NCBI GenBank assembly: GCA_022614805.1
Contig: JAKEHY010000001.1
Coordinates: 1-64,000 of the forward strand
DNA from: Candidatus Zixiibacteriota bacterium
GTDB lineage: Bacteria > Zixibacteria > MSB-5A5 > DSPP01
Reading direction: 5' to 3'
Length of the DNA stretch: 64,000 nt
Shown: positions 9,687 to 64,000 of the stretch, piece by piece
How the letters are laid out: every line of letters starts with the position of its first letter
How positions within the stretch are numbered: position 1 is the first letter of the stretch
Notes under the pieces: generated by a model
Seen by the model: only the letters and a program-made list of their open reading frames with translations
Databases searched by the model: none
Told to the model about the DNA's origin: nothing
Made by a program: the position numbers and the translations under genes

Positions 9687-10631
9687 CTAAAACTCAATGG
9701 ACAGCGAAACCCGGTAGCTGTTATCCAGCGCCGGGTGAGTCAAAAAAGCGAAATCGACCCGTACCGGTGAGACCCAAATGCCGGCCCCGGCCGTGAAGTC
9801 CCCCACATCGAATCCCAATCGGGCAAATCCCTTCCGACGGTAGCCAATCTCCAATCCATAATGGTTGTCGGCGGAAATGGAACCCTGGTAGTATTGGGCC
9901 GAGGCCTTCCGCCCCTCAAAACGCACATCGGTCGAGAAGGCTCCCAGAAAACTAAAATCCTGACAGGAATATTCATAGCTGCTTCCCAGCTTCACGGTCG
10001 GCGTAATCGTTTCCTTGGTGCCTGTATCGTAAGCCAAAAGCGTGGAGGTAAAATCGTTAACCACAATGGCTGTCCACCAATTCACTCTCGGTTGCCATAA
10101 CAAACCAGCGTCGGCGCCAATCCCGAAAGCCGAGTTGTCGACGATGGCCCGGTAAATTAATTTTACACTCCCCCCCCAAAAAAGATTCGGCCCAAGCGGG
10201 CGGCCGTATGAACCCAAAAAAGCATAGTCCCCGTGCCCTTCTACTTTAACCACGTACGGCCGATTGTTGTCCCCTATCAAAGAATCGGGATGGGGCAATT
10301 CGGTCACCTTGATTCCCCCCCCACCCAGGCGAAGGGCCGAAAAAACCAGCCCAAAATTGTCCCGGGGCAAACCGACCGACAGATAGTCATGATTCAAAAG
10401 CGAGCCAAAGGTTTCCGCGTGCATAAAAACCGCCTGGCGGGAGGAAAGCCGGGCAACTCCGGCCGGGTTCCACCAGCCGGAGGTGGCGTCATCGACCACG
10501 GAAATATACGCTCCTCCCATGCCCAATCCGCGGGCACCCACCCCCAGACTTAAAAACTCACCGGCATATTTGGTGGCGGAAACCGAGGAGAAAGTCAAAA
10601 CCAAAAAACCGGCCAAAATGCCAACCTTCAT
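9687..10631 (-). CDS. PorV/PorQ family (UPF0164) outer-membrane beta-barrel protein
   Basis: About 314 residues from the ATG at 10631, preceded by GAGGGA. It has a signal peptide (MKVGILAGFLVLTFSSVSA), then KYAGEFLSLGVGARGLGMGG and the conserved WWNPAGVARL, the N-terminal signature of PorV/PorQ/FadL-like barrels in the FCB group. The chain ends in a C-terminal phenylalanine (SLSIEF), typical of barrel proteins. In Bacteroidetes PorV is a type 9 secretion shuttle; no other T9SS gene is visible here, so that role is not implied. Confidence 0.82.
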   Translation of the reverse strand: MKVGILAGFLVLTFSSVSATKYAGEFLSLGVGARGLGMGGAYISVVDDATSGWWNPAGVARLSSRQAVFMHAETFGSLLNHDYLSVGLPRDNFGLVFSALRLGGGGIKVTELPHPDSLIGDNNRPYVVKVEGHGDYAFLGSYGRPLGPNLFWGGSVKLIYRAIVDNSAFGIGADAGLLWQPRVNWWTAIVVNDFTSTLLAYDTGTKETITPTVKLGSSYEYSCQDFSFLGAFSTDVRFEGRKASAQYYQGSISADNHYGLEIGYRRKGFARLGFDVGDFTAGAGIWVSPVRVDFAFLTHPALDNSYRVSLSIEF

Positions 10632-10675
10632 TCCCTCGTACAATCTAACCACTATGGCCTGGCTGTCAATAAAAA

Positions 10676-10695
10676 AGCGGAGCTTGCGCTCCGCT
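10676..10695 (-). terminator. rho-independent terminator after the HMA gene
   Basis: AGCGGAGC, loop TTGC, GCTCCGCT: a perfect 8-bp stem followed on the minus strand by TTTTTTATTG. It separates the HMA-protein transcript from the PorV gene. Confidence 0.85.
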
Positions 10696-10719
10696 TTCCG
10701 AACTCCCCATATCTGGTTG

Positions 10720-11139
10720 TTAGGTATCCGACTTGACCGATTTGACCGAAGCCGTAAAACCGGTGGCATTGACGGCCTGAATGATTGATTCCTCGTTGAG
10801 TGTGGTCGGATTGTACTTCACTTCGGCCGACTTGCGGGTGTAACTCACCTTGGCAGATTGTACGCCATCCAGCTTGGTCAGGGCCGCCTGCACGGTTTTG
10901 CTGCAGCTGCCGCAATGCATTCCGCTGACCGAAAGCTTTAGCACCTGAACCGAAGCGGCGCCGGCCTGTTCCGTTTTGGTCTCGCAGGCCGCCGCCGAAG
11001 CTTTTTCCACCCTTTCGCAGGCGGCGGAAGCCGAAGTTGTCGTCGATTTTGCCTTGGAACAACAACCCGGACCGGCAACTGCCCAGGAACAAAAAGCCAA
11101 AACCGCCAGACCAACTGCCAAGGCCAGAATCTTCTTCAT
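10720..11139 (-). CDS. exported heavy-metal-associated (HMA) domain protein
   Basis: About 139 residues from the ATG at 11139, which follows GGAGG. It has a signal peptide (MKKILALAVGLAVLAFCSWA) and a short Cys-rich linker (GPGCCSK, AACERV, AACETK). An HMA ferredoxin-like fold starts near residue 70 with GMHCGSCSKTV. The paired cysteines bind soft metals (Cu, Hg, Zn), as in CopZ or MerP. A periplasmic location makes it MerP-like in topology. It lies downstream of two exported thioredoxin-like proteins but has its own promoter and terminator. Confidence 0.85.
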   Translation of the reverse strand: MKKILALAVGLAVLAFCSWAVAGPGCCSKAKSTTTSASAACERVEKASAAACETKTEQAGAASVQVLKLSVSGMHCGSCSKTVQAALTKLDGVQSAKVSYTRKSAEVKYNPTTLNEESIIQAVNATGFTASVKSVKSDT

Positions 11140-11188
11140 GTAACTCCTCCTTCCGGTTGCGTTTTTCGTTTTCCCCTCGCTCCCCTTC

Positions 11189-11216
11189 AATATAATCTTT
11201 CTCCTTTGGAAAGCAA
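11189..11216 (-). promoter_or_regulatory. promoter of the HMA protein gene
   Basis: Minus strand TTGCTT (11216-11211), 16 bases, TATATT (11194-11189). It predicts a leader of about 40 bases. Motif match only. Confidence 0.45.
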
Positions 11217-11271
11217 GGTTTTTCACGACCTATAATCCTCGGAGCCGAAAAGGCTTCGGGACGAAACAATC

Positions 11272-11826
<555 letters not shown>

Positions 11827-11945
11827 ACCCTGGTTAAACCCTTCGTAAAGTTCGAAGGTTCCCAAAATTTTAAACTACCGCTGCCTGCCAAACACGAGAG
11901 GGGGGTTGAGGGAAACTCGGTCTGGCGTGGTCGACAGCGGTAGCT

Positions 11946-12515
11946 TTAATTTGTCTTTTTGGCCGCCAGTTCTTTTTCGTATTCTTCAAATTTCTTGGTC
12001 TGGTATGCCTTGCTGCTGATGAATGTCAGGATGTTGACAAACTTGTCCTTCGGGATGTAGCCGGGAATGTAAGTCAATTTTTCCCCGGAGGAGGTCAAAA
12101 ACCAGAGGGCCGGATACCCCTGCACGCCAAAGACCTCGCGTGCCAGGCGAGCATCCGTATACTCTTTGCCGTCATCCAGAACAAACCGCCGGCTGGATTC
12201 GGCGTTGGTTTTTACGGTGACGAAATGGCGGGCCAGAACAACTTTCACCGCGCTGTCCGAATAAACTTCCTTGTCCAGCTTTTTGCACCAGCCGCACCAG
12301 CTCGTGTAAAAATCGACGAAAATATTTTTGTTATCCAGCTTCCCTTTTTTCAGGCCATCTTCATAGTTGAGCCAGGTAATCTCGACCGGCCAAGCGGGCG
12401 CTTCCCCTTTCTTGGAAGCGGCGACCTTCTTGACGGAGCCGCCCTCCTTCTTCGGTTCCGGCCCGGAGGCCCCCAAAAGAAAGACTGCGGAAAGCAAAAT
12501 TGTGGCGAAACGCAC
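11946..12515 (-). CDS. exported thioredoxin-fold protein (WCGWC active site)
   Basis: About 189 residues from the GTG at 12515, placed just after AAAGGAGGT. It has a short signal sequence (MRFATILLSAVFLLGAS) and a Lys/Ala-rich linker. The thioredoxin domain has IFVDFYTSWCGWCKKLDKEV and the cis-Pro loop GYPALWFL. It resembles the thioredoxin_7/DsbD-gamma-like group that acts on periplasmic disulfides. No gene lies in the 215 bases between it and the end of dnaE. Confidence 0.82.
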   Translation of the reverse strand: MRFATILLSAVFLLGASGPEPKKEGGSVKKVAASKKGEAPAWPVEITWLNYEDGLKKGKLDNKNIFVDFYTSWCGWCKKLDKEVYSDSAVKVVLARHFVTVKTNAESSRRFVLDDGKEYTDARLAREVFGVQGYPALWFLTSSGEKLTYIPGYIPKDKFVNILTFISSKAYQTKKFEEYEKELAAKKTN

Positions 12516-12730
12516 TCTACCTCCTTTGTCCAATCCCTTTAACCGCCTTACTTCGGAATACACCATACTTCCTCGCCGGTGTACGTATCTTCAACAACCG
12601 CAGTCATCTTCGGGTTCCCTTATATTTTACACTTTCCGGGACGAAAAGTCACTAATTAATTTCCATCCGCTTCGGGGCCACCCGGTCTCCTTTGCTTTAT
12701 CGTCGACTCGCCGGGAGGGAAATTTGAGCC

Positions 12731-15700
12731 TCAACAAAGCACCTCCGATTCCGTCAGGCCGCCGTTTTCTTCCAAGTCGGACGACGGAGCCGGTTTTGAG
12801 GACCGGGCTGCTCGAACGAACCCATTCCTCTGGGCCCGTGAAACCGCTATTCTTTCCGCGCCGACAAACTGCCGAAGGTTTTCCAAAAGCTCCGGGGAGA
12901 GCTTCAGCCCCCCCCGGCGGGAATGAGTCAACAAGGTTTCATCGGAACCGACCACCCGCAGGTTCAGGACCGCCAGCCAGCTTCCAAATTCAAACAGAGG
13001 CAGGGTCCGTTCCAGAAGCGGTCGGTCGGTCACCCCTAAAGTAAGGGTCAAAACAAGGGGGGTGCGCAGGTAGGCTTCTTCTACGGTATGAATTTCGGAG
13101 GCGACCAGCTTCGGCTTTTCCCCCTCCTTGGTCGAGACCCGCCCGCGGGTGACCACCAACTTTTCCGGATGAAGGGAGGGACGGGAACGCTCATAGACGT
13201 CCGAAAAGACCACCAGCTCCGTCCGTCCCGTGATGTCTTCGATGCCGACAAAAGCCATCCGCTTCCCTTTTTTGTCCAGTTTGGTTTTGATATCCCCAAT
13301 CATTCCGGAAAGAGTCACTTCCTCTCCATCCCGGAAGTTTTCCAGATTTCCAATCCGGGTGGTGGAGAACAAATCCAGTTCCAGCCGGTAGTTTTCCAGC
13401 GGGTTACCGGAGAAGTAAAATCCCAGCACCTCCTTTTCCCGGGTCAGGCGCATCCCCTCCGGCCATTCCGCCTCCGGCTCCGTCGCCGGCTCGCTAAGCC
13501 CGGCTTCAGCCCGCCCGCCAAAAAGAGAAGCCTGGCCGGACGCTTCAGCCAGCTGGACGTCCGCACCCCGGTCGAGCGACCGTTGAACGTTTTTGAAAAG
13601 CCGGCCCCGATTCGCATCCAGTTGGTCGAAGGCCCCGGCCAGAATCAGACTTTCTGCCATTCGGCGGTTCAAGGCGCGGGACTCCACCTTGCGTGCGAAA
13701 TCGAAGACGGACCTGAACTCTCCTTTGAGCTGTCGGGCGGCGATGACGGCTTCCACCGCTCCTTCCCCGACGTTTTTGACGGCCCCCAGGCCGTAACGGA
13801 TTTTTCCATCCTCGACTGTAAATGCGGAAAAACTCCGATTGACGTCCGGCGGCAAAACTTCAATCCCAAGCCGCCGGCTTTCTAAAATCAATTGCACAAC
13901 TCGGTCGGTGTTCCCCATTTCGGAAGAAAGGGAGGCGGTCATAAAATAAACCGGCCAGTGGGCTTTCAAATATCCGGTCTGGTAGGCCAGACAGGCATAG
14001 CCGACCGAATGGGCTTTGTTAAAACCGTACCGTCCGAAGGTGACAATCTGTTCGAAAATCCGTTCGGCCTTCGGCCGGTCGATGTGACGGGTGACCGCGC
14101 CTTTGATGAACTCCTCCTTCTCTCCGGCCATCAATTCGGCGTCCTTTTTCCCCATCGCCTTTCGCAGAATATCGGCTTGGCCCAACGTATAACCGGCCAA
14201 CTCCTTGGCGATTTCCAAAACCTGTTCCTGAAAGACGATGACGCCGTAGGTTTCTTTCAAGATTTTTTCCAGCTTGGGGTGCTCGTAGTGGACCTTTTTC
14301 CCTTTTTTTCGGTCGATGTATTCATCCACCATATAGGCGTCCAACGGGCCGGGGCGGTACAAAGCGTTCATCGCCGCCAAATCGGAGAGGGAGTCCGGTT
14401 TAAGCTTGCGCAAATAATCCCGCATACCGGCCGACTCGAACTGGAAAAGCCCGGTGGTTTCGCCGGAGGCGAAAAGCTCGAAGGTTTTGGAATCATCAAG
14501 GGGAATTTTGTCGACGTCAATTTCAACCCCCTCTTTCTCTTTCACCAACCGGACGGTGTCCTCAATTACGGTGAGGGTGCGCAGCCCCAAAAAATCCATT
14601 TTCAAAAGGCCGATATCTTCAATCCCCTTCATGTCGAACTGGGTCACCGTTTCATCCCGGTTGGTGCGATAGAGGGGAACATAATCGGTCAGATTGGAGG
14701 GGGCGATGACGACCCCGGCGGCGTGGACGGAGGCATGACGGGAAAGTCCCTCCAAGGTTTTGGAATATTCCATCAACTGGGCAATTTTAGGGTCGGCGGC
14801 AACCAGCCGCTTCAAATCCGGCTGAAGTTCCATTGCCCGCTCCAAAGTCATTTCGGTATCAAAAGGAATGAGCTTGGCAATCCGGTCCACTTCCGAATAG
14901 GGCAAGGACATTACCCGCCCGACATCCCGCACGACCGCGCGGGCGGCCATCGTTCCGAAGGTTATGATCTGGCTGACGTTATCCTGGCCGTATTTGTCGA
15001 TTACATATTTAATAATTTTGTCCCTATCCCGGTCGGAAAAATCGATGTCGATATCCGGCATCGAGATTCGCTCTGGATTCAAGAATCGCTCGAACAAAAG
15101 TCCATATTTTATTGGGTCAATGCGGGTTATGCCAGTACAATAGGCTATTAAGCTTCCCCCTACGGAGCCCCTGCCGGGGCCGACCGAAATGTTGTTCCGA
15201 AGGGCGTAATCAACGAAATCCCGCACGATTAGAAAGTAACCGGAATACCCCATCTCCCGAATAACTTTCAGCTCGTATTCCAAGCGCTCCTTCACTTCCG
15301 GAGAAACCGGATGATAGCGTTCCTCCATCCCCTTCCGGGCCAGGTGTTCCAGGAATTGGTCGGTGGAGGCAAAACCGGGCGGGAGCGGAAAGCGAGGCAG
15401 GTGCAGTTTTCCCAATTCCAATTCAAGGTTGCAGACCTCGGCTATTCGCAGGGTGTTTTCAATTGATTCCGGCGCCCAGCCGAAAAGCTCTTTCATTTCC
15501 CGGTCGGATTTGAAATAAATCTGGTCGGTTTCGTATTTAAGCCGGTCGGTGTCGGAGATTACCTTTCCTGTCTGGATGCATAGAAGGGCGTCGTGGGCGG
15601 CGGCATCCGAGCGCCGCAGGTAATGGCAGTCGTTGGTAGCCACCAACCCGAGCCCCATTTCCTGTCCGATTTTTGACAGTTCTCCCCGAATTCGGTCTTC

Positions 15701-61498: not shown

Positions 61499-61614
61499 CA
61501 TAACCTTCTCATATTACGCAAAACCGGGCCAAAATGGCAACAAAATTTTTTGTCTTGCTAACGCCATTCGCCTGCCTTAACTTATGCCCAAGTGGATTAT
61601 TGAGGTAGGGTCAC

Positions 61615-63276
61615 ATGGAGTTCGCCAGGAAAGGAAGCGTTTTCTTGCGAAAAGAAAGCATCGACACCGAGCTTCAAACCGAAGAGCCCTCCATAGTCGA
61701 GGCCTTGAACCAGGCCGAGGCTCTAATTCAGTCCAAGCGCTACCAAGAAGCTCGCAGCAAGCTTCAAAAAATATCCCTCAATCTCCAAATCACGGGCGTC
61801 TGCGACGAATCGTGGCGTTATCACTACTTGTGCGGCCTGACTTATTTTTGGTTGGGAGAGCAAACAGAGGCCTGGAAGGAAGCCGAAGAGGCCCTGCAGA
61901 CATTCACGCGGGCTCACCAGCTCGTTGTCCTGCCGAAATCGGACGAGCTACCCGCCTTGGTGGCGAAAAATCTGAAAAACCTGCGCACCATAGAATTGGC
62001 TTTGCTGGATGGATTGGAAGGCCAAATTTCGGATGAAAACGGGCGAAAACAGGAAACTCTGGAACGCCGAATCGCCGAGATTTCCGCTTCCCTGGAACAA
62101 CTGACCCCCCTGGCTAAACTGCACCAATTGGCCGGCAACATCCTTAGACCTTTGGGAAAACTGCCCGAGGCGCTTGAGCATCTGGAATGGGCCGCCACCG
62201 GTTTTCGGCTTACAGGGGACTGGACTTCCCTCGCCGAGACGCTAAACAAGGCCGCTTTGGCGCGCATGGCGTTGGGAGAACTGCCATCTGCCCTCCAAGT
62301 CCTCGAACAAGCCAGATATTATTGCCTTAAAGCCAAGGACCACCGTTATCTCGAATTAGTTATTCATTCAAATATGGCCATTTGCCAGCTTTTGGGCGGC
62401 AACTGGAGGCCACCACTCTCCACCCTCTCGGAGCTACTGCCCGAAGCAAAAAATTCGAACGATTTTCCAAGGTATAGCAATACCTTGCTGCTTTGGGGTT
62501 GGGCCAACCTCTTGGGGGGCCGGTTGAGACAGACCCGCCGGGCCATCGTCGAAGCCCGCCACATTGCGGCAGAAAAAAACCTCGTCGGCTTTCTGAAAGT
62601 TTCTTATGGATTTTCGGCTGATTTGGCAATCGCCGAGGGCCGTTTGGAGGAAGCGGAGAAATACATAAAGACCCTATTGGAGCTTTCCCGGTCAACGACG
62701 CCTGGCGGCGAGCACGTAGCCCAGGCCTGGCAGGTGCTGGGGGAAATATATATAGCACGAAAAGAATACGCCCGGGCCCTTAAAGCCCTCGCCGTCTGTT
62801 TGGAACAGTTGTCCAAACAGCCGGAAAGATGGGTAGAAGGGGCCGTTTACCGCGGGATGGGAATTTGCCACGCCAAATCGGGCCTGCTCCGGCTTGCGCG
62901 CAAGGAGTTCAAAAAATCCTGTGAAATTTTTGAGCTCTGCAGCAACCAGTGGGAAAAGGCCAAAACCATTGTGGCCGCAGCCGAATCCGGCGTTTATACC
63001 CGAGCCGAAATGGAACCAGACATCGCCTGGGCGAAAGAGGTTTTTAAAAGGCTGGAACACCCGGCTTGGATTAAAAGGGCGCGGGCTTTTCTAAAGAAAC
63101 CAAAAAACTCCGGCCGGAAGGTTCCTCTCCCATTAACCCGAGAGCGAACCGAACGAGAACAAATCGTTAGAGCTTTGTTAAGCTGCAACGGCAACATCAC
63201 CCAAGCCGCCAAAAAGCTTGGCCTTTTGCGCCAAACCCTACAGTATAAAATCCACCACTACGGGATAGAAGTCTAA
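61615..63276 (+). CDS. TPR-repeat regulator with C-terminal Fis-type helix-turn-helix
   Basis: 553 residues. The bulk is about ten tetratricopeptide-like helix pairs (EALNQAEALIQSKRYQEARS, LGKLPEALEHLEWAATGFRL, ARKEYARALKALAVCLEQLS). The last 45 residues are a Fis/HTH_8 DNA-binding unit: IVRALLSCNGNITQAAKKLG, LLRQTLQYKIHHYGI. There is no AAA+ sigma54-interaction domain and no receiver domain, unlike most Fis-HTH regulators. It starts after AGGTAGGG. It probably controls the palindromic region that follows. Confidence 0.85.
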   Translation: MEFARKGSVFLRKESIDTELQTEEPSIVEALNQAEALIQSKRYQEARSKLQKISLNLQITGVCDESWRYHYLCGLTYFWLGEQTEAWKEAEEALQTFTRAHQLVVLPKSDELPALVAKNLKNLRTIELALLDGLEGQISDENGRKQETLERRIAEISASLEQLTPLAKLHQLAGNILRPLGKLPEALEHLEWAATGFRLTGDWTSLAETLNKAALARMALGELPSALQVLEQARYYCLKAKDHRYLELVIHSNMAICQLLGGNWRPPLSTLSELLPEAKNSNDFPRYSNTLLLWGWANLLGGRLRQTRRAIVEARHIAAEKNLVGFLKVSYGFSADLAIAEGRLEEAEKYIKTLLELSRSTTPGGEHVAQAWQVLGEIYIARKEYARALKALAVCLEQLSKQPERWVEGAVYRGMGICHAKSGLLRLARKEFKKSCEIFELCSNQWEKAKTIVAAAESGVYTRAEMEPDIAWAKEVFKRLEHPAWIKRARAFLKKPKNSGRKVPLPLTRERTEREQIVRALLSCNGNITQAAKKLGLLRQTLQYKIHHYGIEV

Positions 63277-63280
63277 CCCC

Positions 63281-63316
63281 GCAAAACATTTTGCAGGGGG
63301 GTGCAAAAATTTTTGC
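63281..63316 (+). promoter_or_regulatory. two tandem palindromes, candidate operator pair
   Basis: GCAAAACATTTTGC (63281-63294) and GCAAAAATTTTTGC (63303-63316), both perfect dyads, centres 22 bases apart (two helical turns). A related half-site GCAAAAC is at 63364-63370. They lie between the TPR-Fis stop and the subtilase gene and would be at about -65 and -43 from the predicted start. Confidence 0.6.
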
Positions 63317-63317
63317 G

Positions 63318-63346
63318 TTGCTCCCCTTCCACTGGCAATGTTTTAT
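63318..63346 (+). promoter_or_regulatory. candidate promoter of the subtilase gene
   Basis: TTGCTC (63318-63323), 17 bases, TTTTAT (63341-63346). Weak hexamers that fit an activated promoter. The start would be near 63353. Confidence 0.35.
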
Positions 63347-63380
63347 CCGACTACAAAGAGGCTGCAAAACCGGCCTTTAG

Positions 63381-63429: not shown

Positions 63430-63463
63430 AAAATTGAAACCTTTAATTTTTGTAGGAGGATTT

Positions 63464-64000
63464 ATGAAATGTTTTTGGTTACTTTCGGTTCTTACAGCCA
63501 TAGCCACTTGCAGTTTCGCTTCCGGAAGCAGAGATGCGGATTACGCACCTGGTGTGCTTTATGTCACTTTCCGACCCGGCTCAATTGATTCCATCTGGCA
63601 CGACGCTGCCGGGGTTATACGGTGCGGCATTCCGTATATTGACTCGTTAAACCAGGCCAATCATTGCCGGGATTTTCGGTTCATCGGTCACCCAGCTTTA
63701 TCATTAAGCAAGAACGATTATCACATCATCTTGCCCGAAAATGCCGATATTCCATCCTTAGCTGCCGCATATCGGGCCGAACCAAAAATCCGGTGGGCAC
63801 GGGCGGACCACTACGCTAAGTTGCAATTCACTCCTAATGATCCATACTTTTCAGGTGTAAATCCGGGAAACGAATGCTATCAATGGAATATGGACGAAGC
63901 CCACTGTAAGTTCGAAAAGGCTTGGGACATAACTCAAGGCGACACCAGCGTGGTGATTGCTATAATTGATAATGGCTTTTTCTACAACCATCCGGACATA
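63464..64000 (+). CDS. secreted subtilisin-like serine protease (C-terminus cut by window edge)
   Basis: 179 codons visible from the ATG at 63464, preceded by GGAGGA. Signal peptide LLSVLTAIATCSFA. A propeptide-like region follows (YHIILPENADIPSLAAAYRA), then QWNMDEAHCKFEKAWDITQG and VVIAIIDNGFFYNHPDI, the S8 catalytic-Asp region (VAVIDTG...HPDL in the family). The His and Ser sites lie beyond the edge. Exported peptidase S8. Confidence 0.87.
   Translation, partial: MKCFWLLSVLTAIATCSFASGSRDADYAPGVLYVTFRPGSIDSIWHDAAGVIRCGIPYIDSLNQANHCRDFRFIGHPALSLSKNDYHIILPENADIPSLAAAYRAEPKIRWARADHYAKLQFTPNDPYFSGVNPGNECYQWNMDEAHCKFEKAWDITQGDTSVVIAIIDNGFFYNHPDI

Follow-up and report, generated by a model that had tools for sequence, protein, structure and literature searches.

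Towards the end of the window, the whole 64,000-nucleotide stretch of Candidatus Zixiibacteriota DNA analyzed here, a regulator gene is followed by two palindromes and then by the gene for an exported protease (Table 1). The encoded protein, which we refer to as TPR-Fis, was modeled by AlphaFold (mean pLDDT 82) as a TPR superhelix followed by three helix-turn-helix (HTH) helices (residues 505-523, 528-535, and 539-549), the last of which is the recognition helix, RQTLQYKIHHY. The top Foldseek matches to the TPR part are TPR proteins, the Foldseek matches include a Rap protein, and the closest solved structures to the HTH include NtrC-family DNA-binding domains. Pfam matched TPR repeats and HTH_8 (residues 509-548, 9.7e-12) and found neither an AAA nor a Sigma54_activat domain in this protein, which bears out the first-pass annotation of a Fis-type regulator without the sigma54 ATPase.

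That annotation had also described two perfect palindromes 22 bases apart, and both are indeed exact. They begin 22 bp from each other, at 4 nt (GCAAAACATTTTGC) and 26 nt (GCAAAAATTTTTGC) from the regulator stop codon, and are the only matches without mismatch in the window. A single TGTCAGGATGTTGACA at 12024 was set aside, as it has no partner dyad. The TTGCTC and TTTTAT boxes are separated by 17 nt and, taking +1 near 63353, the dyad centers fall at about -43.5 and -65.5. The placement at about -65 and -43 thus stands, while the promoter role given to the two boxes is putative: we infer activation and a sigma70 promoter rather than observe them, because the -10 box is not conserved among the sites. 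The presumed target carries a Peptidase_S8 domain with a FlgD_ig/Por_Secre_tail C-terminus (Pfam), and its start is preceded by AGGAGG at 63454.

Table 1. Features of the regulator locus in the window, and of a neighbor of its paralog on contig C1 (G000, window genome; G008, sister genome).
Feature	Position	Strand	Basis or remark
TPR-Fis regulator gene, 553 aa, class I HTH	61615..63276	+	ORF and Pfam
TPR superhelix, residues 27-494, presumed input domain	61693..63096	+	Pfam TPR, AlphaFold model, Foldseek
Fis/NtrC-type HTH helices, residues 505-549	63127..63261	+	HTH_8, model, solved relatives
Candidate operator dyad 1, GCAAAACATTTTGC	63281..63294; 16-bp frame 63280-63295	.	Exact palindrome; same place at paralogs
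Candidate operator dyad 2, GCAAAAATTTTTGC	63303..63316; 16-bp frame 63302-63317	.	Exact palindrome
TTGCTC, putative -35, abuts dyad 2	63318..63323	+	TTG in register at 13/13 aligned sites
TTTTAT, putative weak -10	63341..63346	+	Sequence only; not conserved among sites
Exported subtilase, presumed target	63464..64000, on to about 65938 of contig	+	ORF and Pfam
TPR-Sigma54_activat-HTH_8 neighbor	L100:929-3754 (G000 C1); L099:2018-4906 (G008 C74)		Divergent from C1-type TPR-Fis

No operator pair lies 5' of the regulator gene itself. An AT-rich palindrome does occur there (ACAAAATTTTTTGT, 61540-61553), unpaired and with two mismatches to the dyad of this HTH class; autoregulation through it is not supported.

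We then examined the distribution of the dyads. The 2.56-Mb window genome (G000) contains six exact GCAAAANNTTTTGC palindromes against five for a reversed control, a total near that expected of chance palindromes, but their positions are not random-like. Five of the six lie directly 3' of three TPR-Fis paralogs: two at the window gene, two at the paralog on contig C1 (56% protein identity to the window protein), and one at the paralog on C30 (47%), where the 5' dyad of the pair is degenerate. The sixth, at C26:7083, is unpaired and close to housekeeping genes. Weaker matches with one or two mismatches were discarded; those read in context were mostly coding and lacked a partner dyad. A search of 132 genomes from the phylum gave the paired form twice in the window genome and once in a sister species of the same genus (G008), 7 nt past the stop of the corresponding TPR-Fis gene, and a control pattern has no match in the same 132 genomes. 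The dyads are thus found beside homologous regulators and not scattered, as the first-pass annotation would have it. Close protein relatives (470-560 aa) were found in this genus only; outside it, what matched at the threshold used was mostly of greater length and aligned over the TPR part. The system is present in only two genomes.

Within this family the dyad differs with the type of HTH. Taken as 16-mers, the dyads have the form TGC-N10-GCA or TGT-N10-ACA. Class I recognition helices (RQTLQYKI) go with TGCAAAANNTTTTGCA, class II (R[GP]ALHY[KR]I) with TGTCAANNNNTTGACA, and class III (RSTLHYKI) with GCCAAANNTTTGGC. Tandem dyads spaced by 20-22 bp, the second one adjoined by TTG, follow all eight TPR-Fis genes with a readable 3' flank, a count that includes C30 with its degenerate first dyad and leaves out the class IV genes (G008 C2 and C65), whose 3' flanks were looked for and not found. 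The most divergent paralogs are of class II (C18 in the window genome, C7 in the sister genome), and here two TGTCAA-N4-TTGACA-like dyads lie 21 bp apart, 6 nt past the stop, and abut TTG. A perfect TGTCAANNNNTTGACA occurs once in each of the two genomes, both times at a class II operator site. Searching with the second unit plus TTGAC also retrieved C15 (G000) and its sister ortholog C64, both 5' of a lipoprotein gene, and their first dyads are good though these were outside the query. Several class II second units are degenerate.

Class III genes were found in the sister genome (C11 and C18) and none in the window genome. Both are cut at contig ends, and a 30-nt overlap links them to contigs C77 and C78, where the flank reads stop, TGCCAAAAATTTGGCG, 5 nt, CGCCAAAATTTTGGCG, TTGAC; the sister genome has two perfect copies of GCCAAANNTTTGGCRTTG and the window genome has none.

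Over 13 aligned sites, the mean number of palindromic pairs at the expected offsets is 6.4 and 5.2 of 8, compared with 1.9 overall, a figure that is descriptive because part of the set (some of class II) was chosen with a pattern containing TTGAC. TTG stands in identical register at all 13, and it was not used to find the class I pairs or the sites on C18, C7, C77, and C78. Since it lies 3' of the second dyad and not of the first, TTG is not part of the symmetry, and the simplest reading is a -35-like element. The tracking of dyad variants with HTH type strengthens the cognate-operator reading, and the earlier proposal of a new class of TPR-sensing activator is partly supported; the novelty claimed for an AAA-less Fis-type HTH does not hold, as discussed below. 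Three HTH types with matching operators in one small family make the recognition code of the Fis/NtrC-type helix directly testable.

The GCAAAANNTTTTGC pattern extended by RTTG has precisely six perfect matches across both genomes, one of them GCAAAAATTTTTGC with its adjoining GTTG. Two others, in the sister genome (C73:32374 and C74:6835), lie 5' of exported-protein genes with no adjoining TPR-Fis gene. Sites of this kind, in front of exported-protein or lipoprotein genes without a TPR-Fis neighbor, resemble trans operators, and from sequence the dyads look as if they act as such. Targets appear to be exported proteins and lipoproteins in general rather than proteases, which corrects the earlier suggestion of a secreted protease; among them are exported proteins from a lineage that has been little studied. 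Downstream of the C1 operator pair, we observed a tandem of two related exported proteins, each ~1220 aa long and dockerin-like at the C-terminus (L026:6398-10063 and 10164-13838), relatives of which also occur 3' of operators in the sister genome. The 41-nt operator block at C1 is 78% identical to that of its ortholog, compared with 42% over the next 100 nt (44% when shuffled). For C15/C64 the values are 83% and 57%; C18/C7 (76% and 83%) is uninformative on conservation because both identities are high.

The window palindromes are very probably sites that the regulator itself binds, placed ahead of the secreted-protease gene; the sequence evidence is where they lie, how they are spaced in tandem, their specificity across the genome, their conservation, the trans sites, and the tracking of the HTH. 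The wider proposal, that such dyads are tandem operators through which the TPR-Fis protein encoded just 5' activates the next gene without a sigma54 ATPase, is in our view likely. Against it count the restriction to two genomes, the unconserved -10 region, the degenerate units (the first at C30 and several second ones of class II), the lack of an operator pair 5' of the window regulator gene, and the use of a TTGAC-containing pattern to find part of class II. A dimer of the NtrC-like HTH would occupy each 16-bp dyad, here of the TGC-N10-GCA type, placing two dimers two helical turns apart on one face of the DNA at about -44 and -65. So positioned against the -35-like TTG, they would activate the next gene, here the exported subtilase, through contact with ordinary RNA polymerase and without a sigma54 ATPase step. 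The TPR superhelix would be the input domain, and sister paralogs would keep this geometry with a half-site matched to their own HTH. GG-N10-GC scores at 11 sites are not above those of shuffled sequences; with no -24/-12 element better than shuffles, a sigma54 promoter at these sites was rejected.

TPR-Fis could instead be a repressor that binds beside the -35 element and blocks polymerase until the TPR domain meets a ligand. Dyad 2 touches TTG at every site, a possible position for repression, whereas activation is the better fit for a pair of dimers near -44 and -65 combined with a TTG upstream and a -10 box that is poor and not conserved, and relatives of the HTH are mostly activators; we regard repression as unlikely. 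It is improbable that the sites belong to another regulator such as the TPR-Sigma54_activat-HTH_8 protein encoded divergently beside the C1 paralog, even though this neighbor is kept in both genomes and is related in its HTH and TPR part. It adjoins a single locus, whereas dyads accompany every TPR-Fis gene and change in type with the TPR-Fis HTH, and the -24/-12 element expected of a sigma54 system is no better than shuffles.

Slightly less probable again is a role in RNA, with the dyads terminating the regulator transcript or forming a hairpin in the leader. The window dyads do lie 3' of a stop codon and are flanked by C and G runs able to pair, but the fold is not better than shuffles (z -0.59), no terminator was called there, and Rfam gave no match; on these grounds the hairpin or terminator reading of the window dyads was rejected. 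Moreover, the base sequence itself is kept, beyond what pairing alone would need, the C/G arms are missing from the flanks at C1 and C30, and the trans sites are not 3' of any regulator gene. Chance, or passive copying of the dyads with a duplicated gene, is very improbable: the relatedness of the paralogs and the 141 nt shared without difference by two sister-genome flanks speak for it, but the C1 operator has been kept while its neighboring 100 nt drifted to shuffle level, and sites exist without a TPR-Fis gene.

The leaders downstream of the operators have features of their own. After class II and class III operators, a strong hairpin whose GCCGGGGGAGG/CCCCGGGGGAGC arm recurs is found about 60-250 nt past TTG (G000 C18 and C15; G008 C7, C64, and C78; loci L146, L147, L148, L151, and L165), followed in four cases by a terminator-like T run. 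For three of four leaders the fold is better than that of shuffles, and the hairpins have no Rfam match; they may end a small RNA or work as attenuators. Several leaders (L116, L119, L121, L146, and L147) also contain a CCCCACGCC-like motif (e.g., TGGGTTCCCCACGCCC) about 40-140 nt past TTG.

Four TPR-Fis genes of the sister genome (C11, C18, C2, and C65) form a 2x2 mosaic. Of 23 informative sites in the first 300 shared columns, 18 group C11 with C65 and C18 with C2; over the last 172 columns, all 57 group C11 with C18 and C2 with C65. From the last TPRs onward, DNA identity is 89-100%, compared with about 50% before them; the two class III flanks share 141 identical nt that span the operators and end about 55 nt beyond TTG, where divergence sets in. 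Given this 3' grouping and the identical flanks, the HTH and, for one type, the operator appear to have moved together. The regulator 3' end (HTH, stop, tandem operators, and promoter start) may thus be a portable cassette exchanged between TPR sensors, a suggestion we make tentatively and hold somewhat short of even. If true, sensor and promoter could be re-paired in one recombination step with HTH and operator still matched, and operators attached to the regulator 3' end would explain the reshuffling of regulators and targets without mismatch. As the 3' parts of these four genes (loci L101, L106, L107, and L108) are pairwise near-identical, each gene breaks off precisely at the end of its contig, and automated annotation will overlook the operators of such genes in assemblies of this sort.

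Compared with known systems, TPR-Fis shares a C-terminal HTH_8 (1e-10 to 1e-12 across TPR-Fis proteins) with NtrC/NifA-type enhancer-binding proteins. NifA enhancer sites have TGT-N10-ACA spacing, and the TPR-Fis dyads, TGT-N10-ACA or TGC-N10-GCA, have the same, which suits an HTH with solved relatives in the NtrC family. Unlike these proteins, the four TPR-Fis proteins searched gave no match to the AAA+ sigma54 domain, and their sites directly adjoin a -35-like TTG and are not placed far 5' of a -24/-12 promoter. Judged by its predicted domains and sites, with neither AAA+ nor -24/-12, TPR-Fis falls outside the sigma54 enhancer-binding proteins but resembles them at its DNA-binding end.

Fis and the response regulators RegA, PrrA, and ActR carry a Fis-type HTH without AAA+ and work with ordinary polymerase. 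A Fis-type HTH without AAA is not novel in itself, because Fis and RegA-type regulators are already of this kind; it is the TPR-Fis form that we count as new. The TPR-Fis HTH has weak sequence matches to Fis/RegA-type proteins. Its input, however, is a TPR superhelix and not a receiver: TPR-Fis gave matches to TPR and HTH only, with no receiver domain, and NCBIfam ActR_PrrA scored far below the cut-off. In contrast to the loose binding of Fis, TPR-Fis has specific tandem 16-bp candidate operators.

MalT and the RRNPP regulators (Rap/Rgg/PlcR) place a TPR input on a DNA-binding regulator, and RRNPP genes often lie beside their own target. TPR-Fis likewise couples a TPR input domain to a DNA-binding part. 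Its HTH, however, is C-terminal and of the Fis/NtrC type, unlike the N-terminal Xre-type HTH of RRNPP proteins and the LuxR-type HTH of MalT, and it lacks the NOD ATPase of MalT. With a C-terminal HTH_8 and a model that begins with TPR helices, TPR-Fis is not an RRNPP protein. A literature search found no description of AAA-less TPR-Fis regulators. A further counterpart is encoded beside the C1 paralog in both genomes: the divergent 941-aa TPR-Sigma54_activat-HTH_8 protein shares the TPR input part and HTH_8 with TPR-Fis but has AAA+ (Sigma54_activat, 3.2e-69). It is possible that this protein is a partner of the AAA-less form, and possible too that the AAA-less family arose from a protein of the 941-aa type by domain loss, which suggests how an ordinary activator could arise from one of the sigma54 type through loss of the ATPase.
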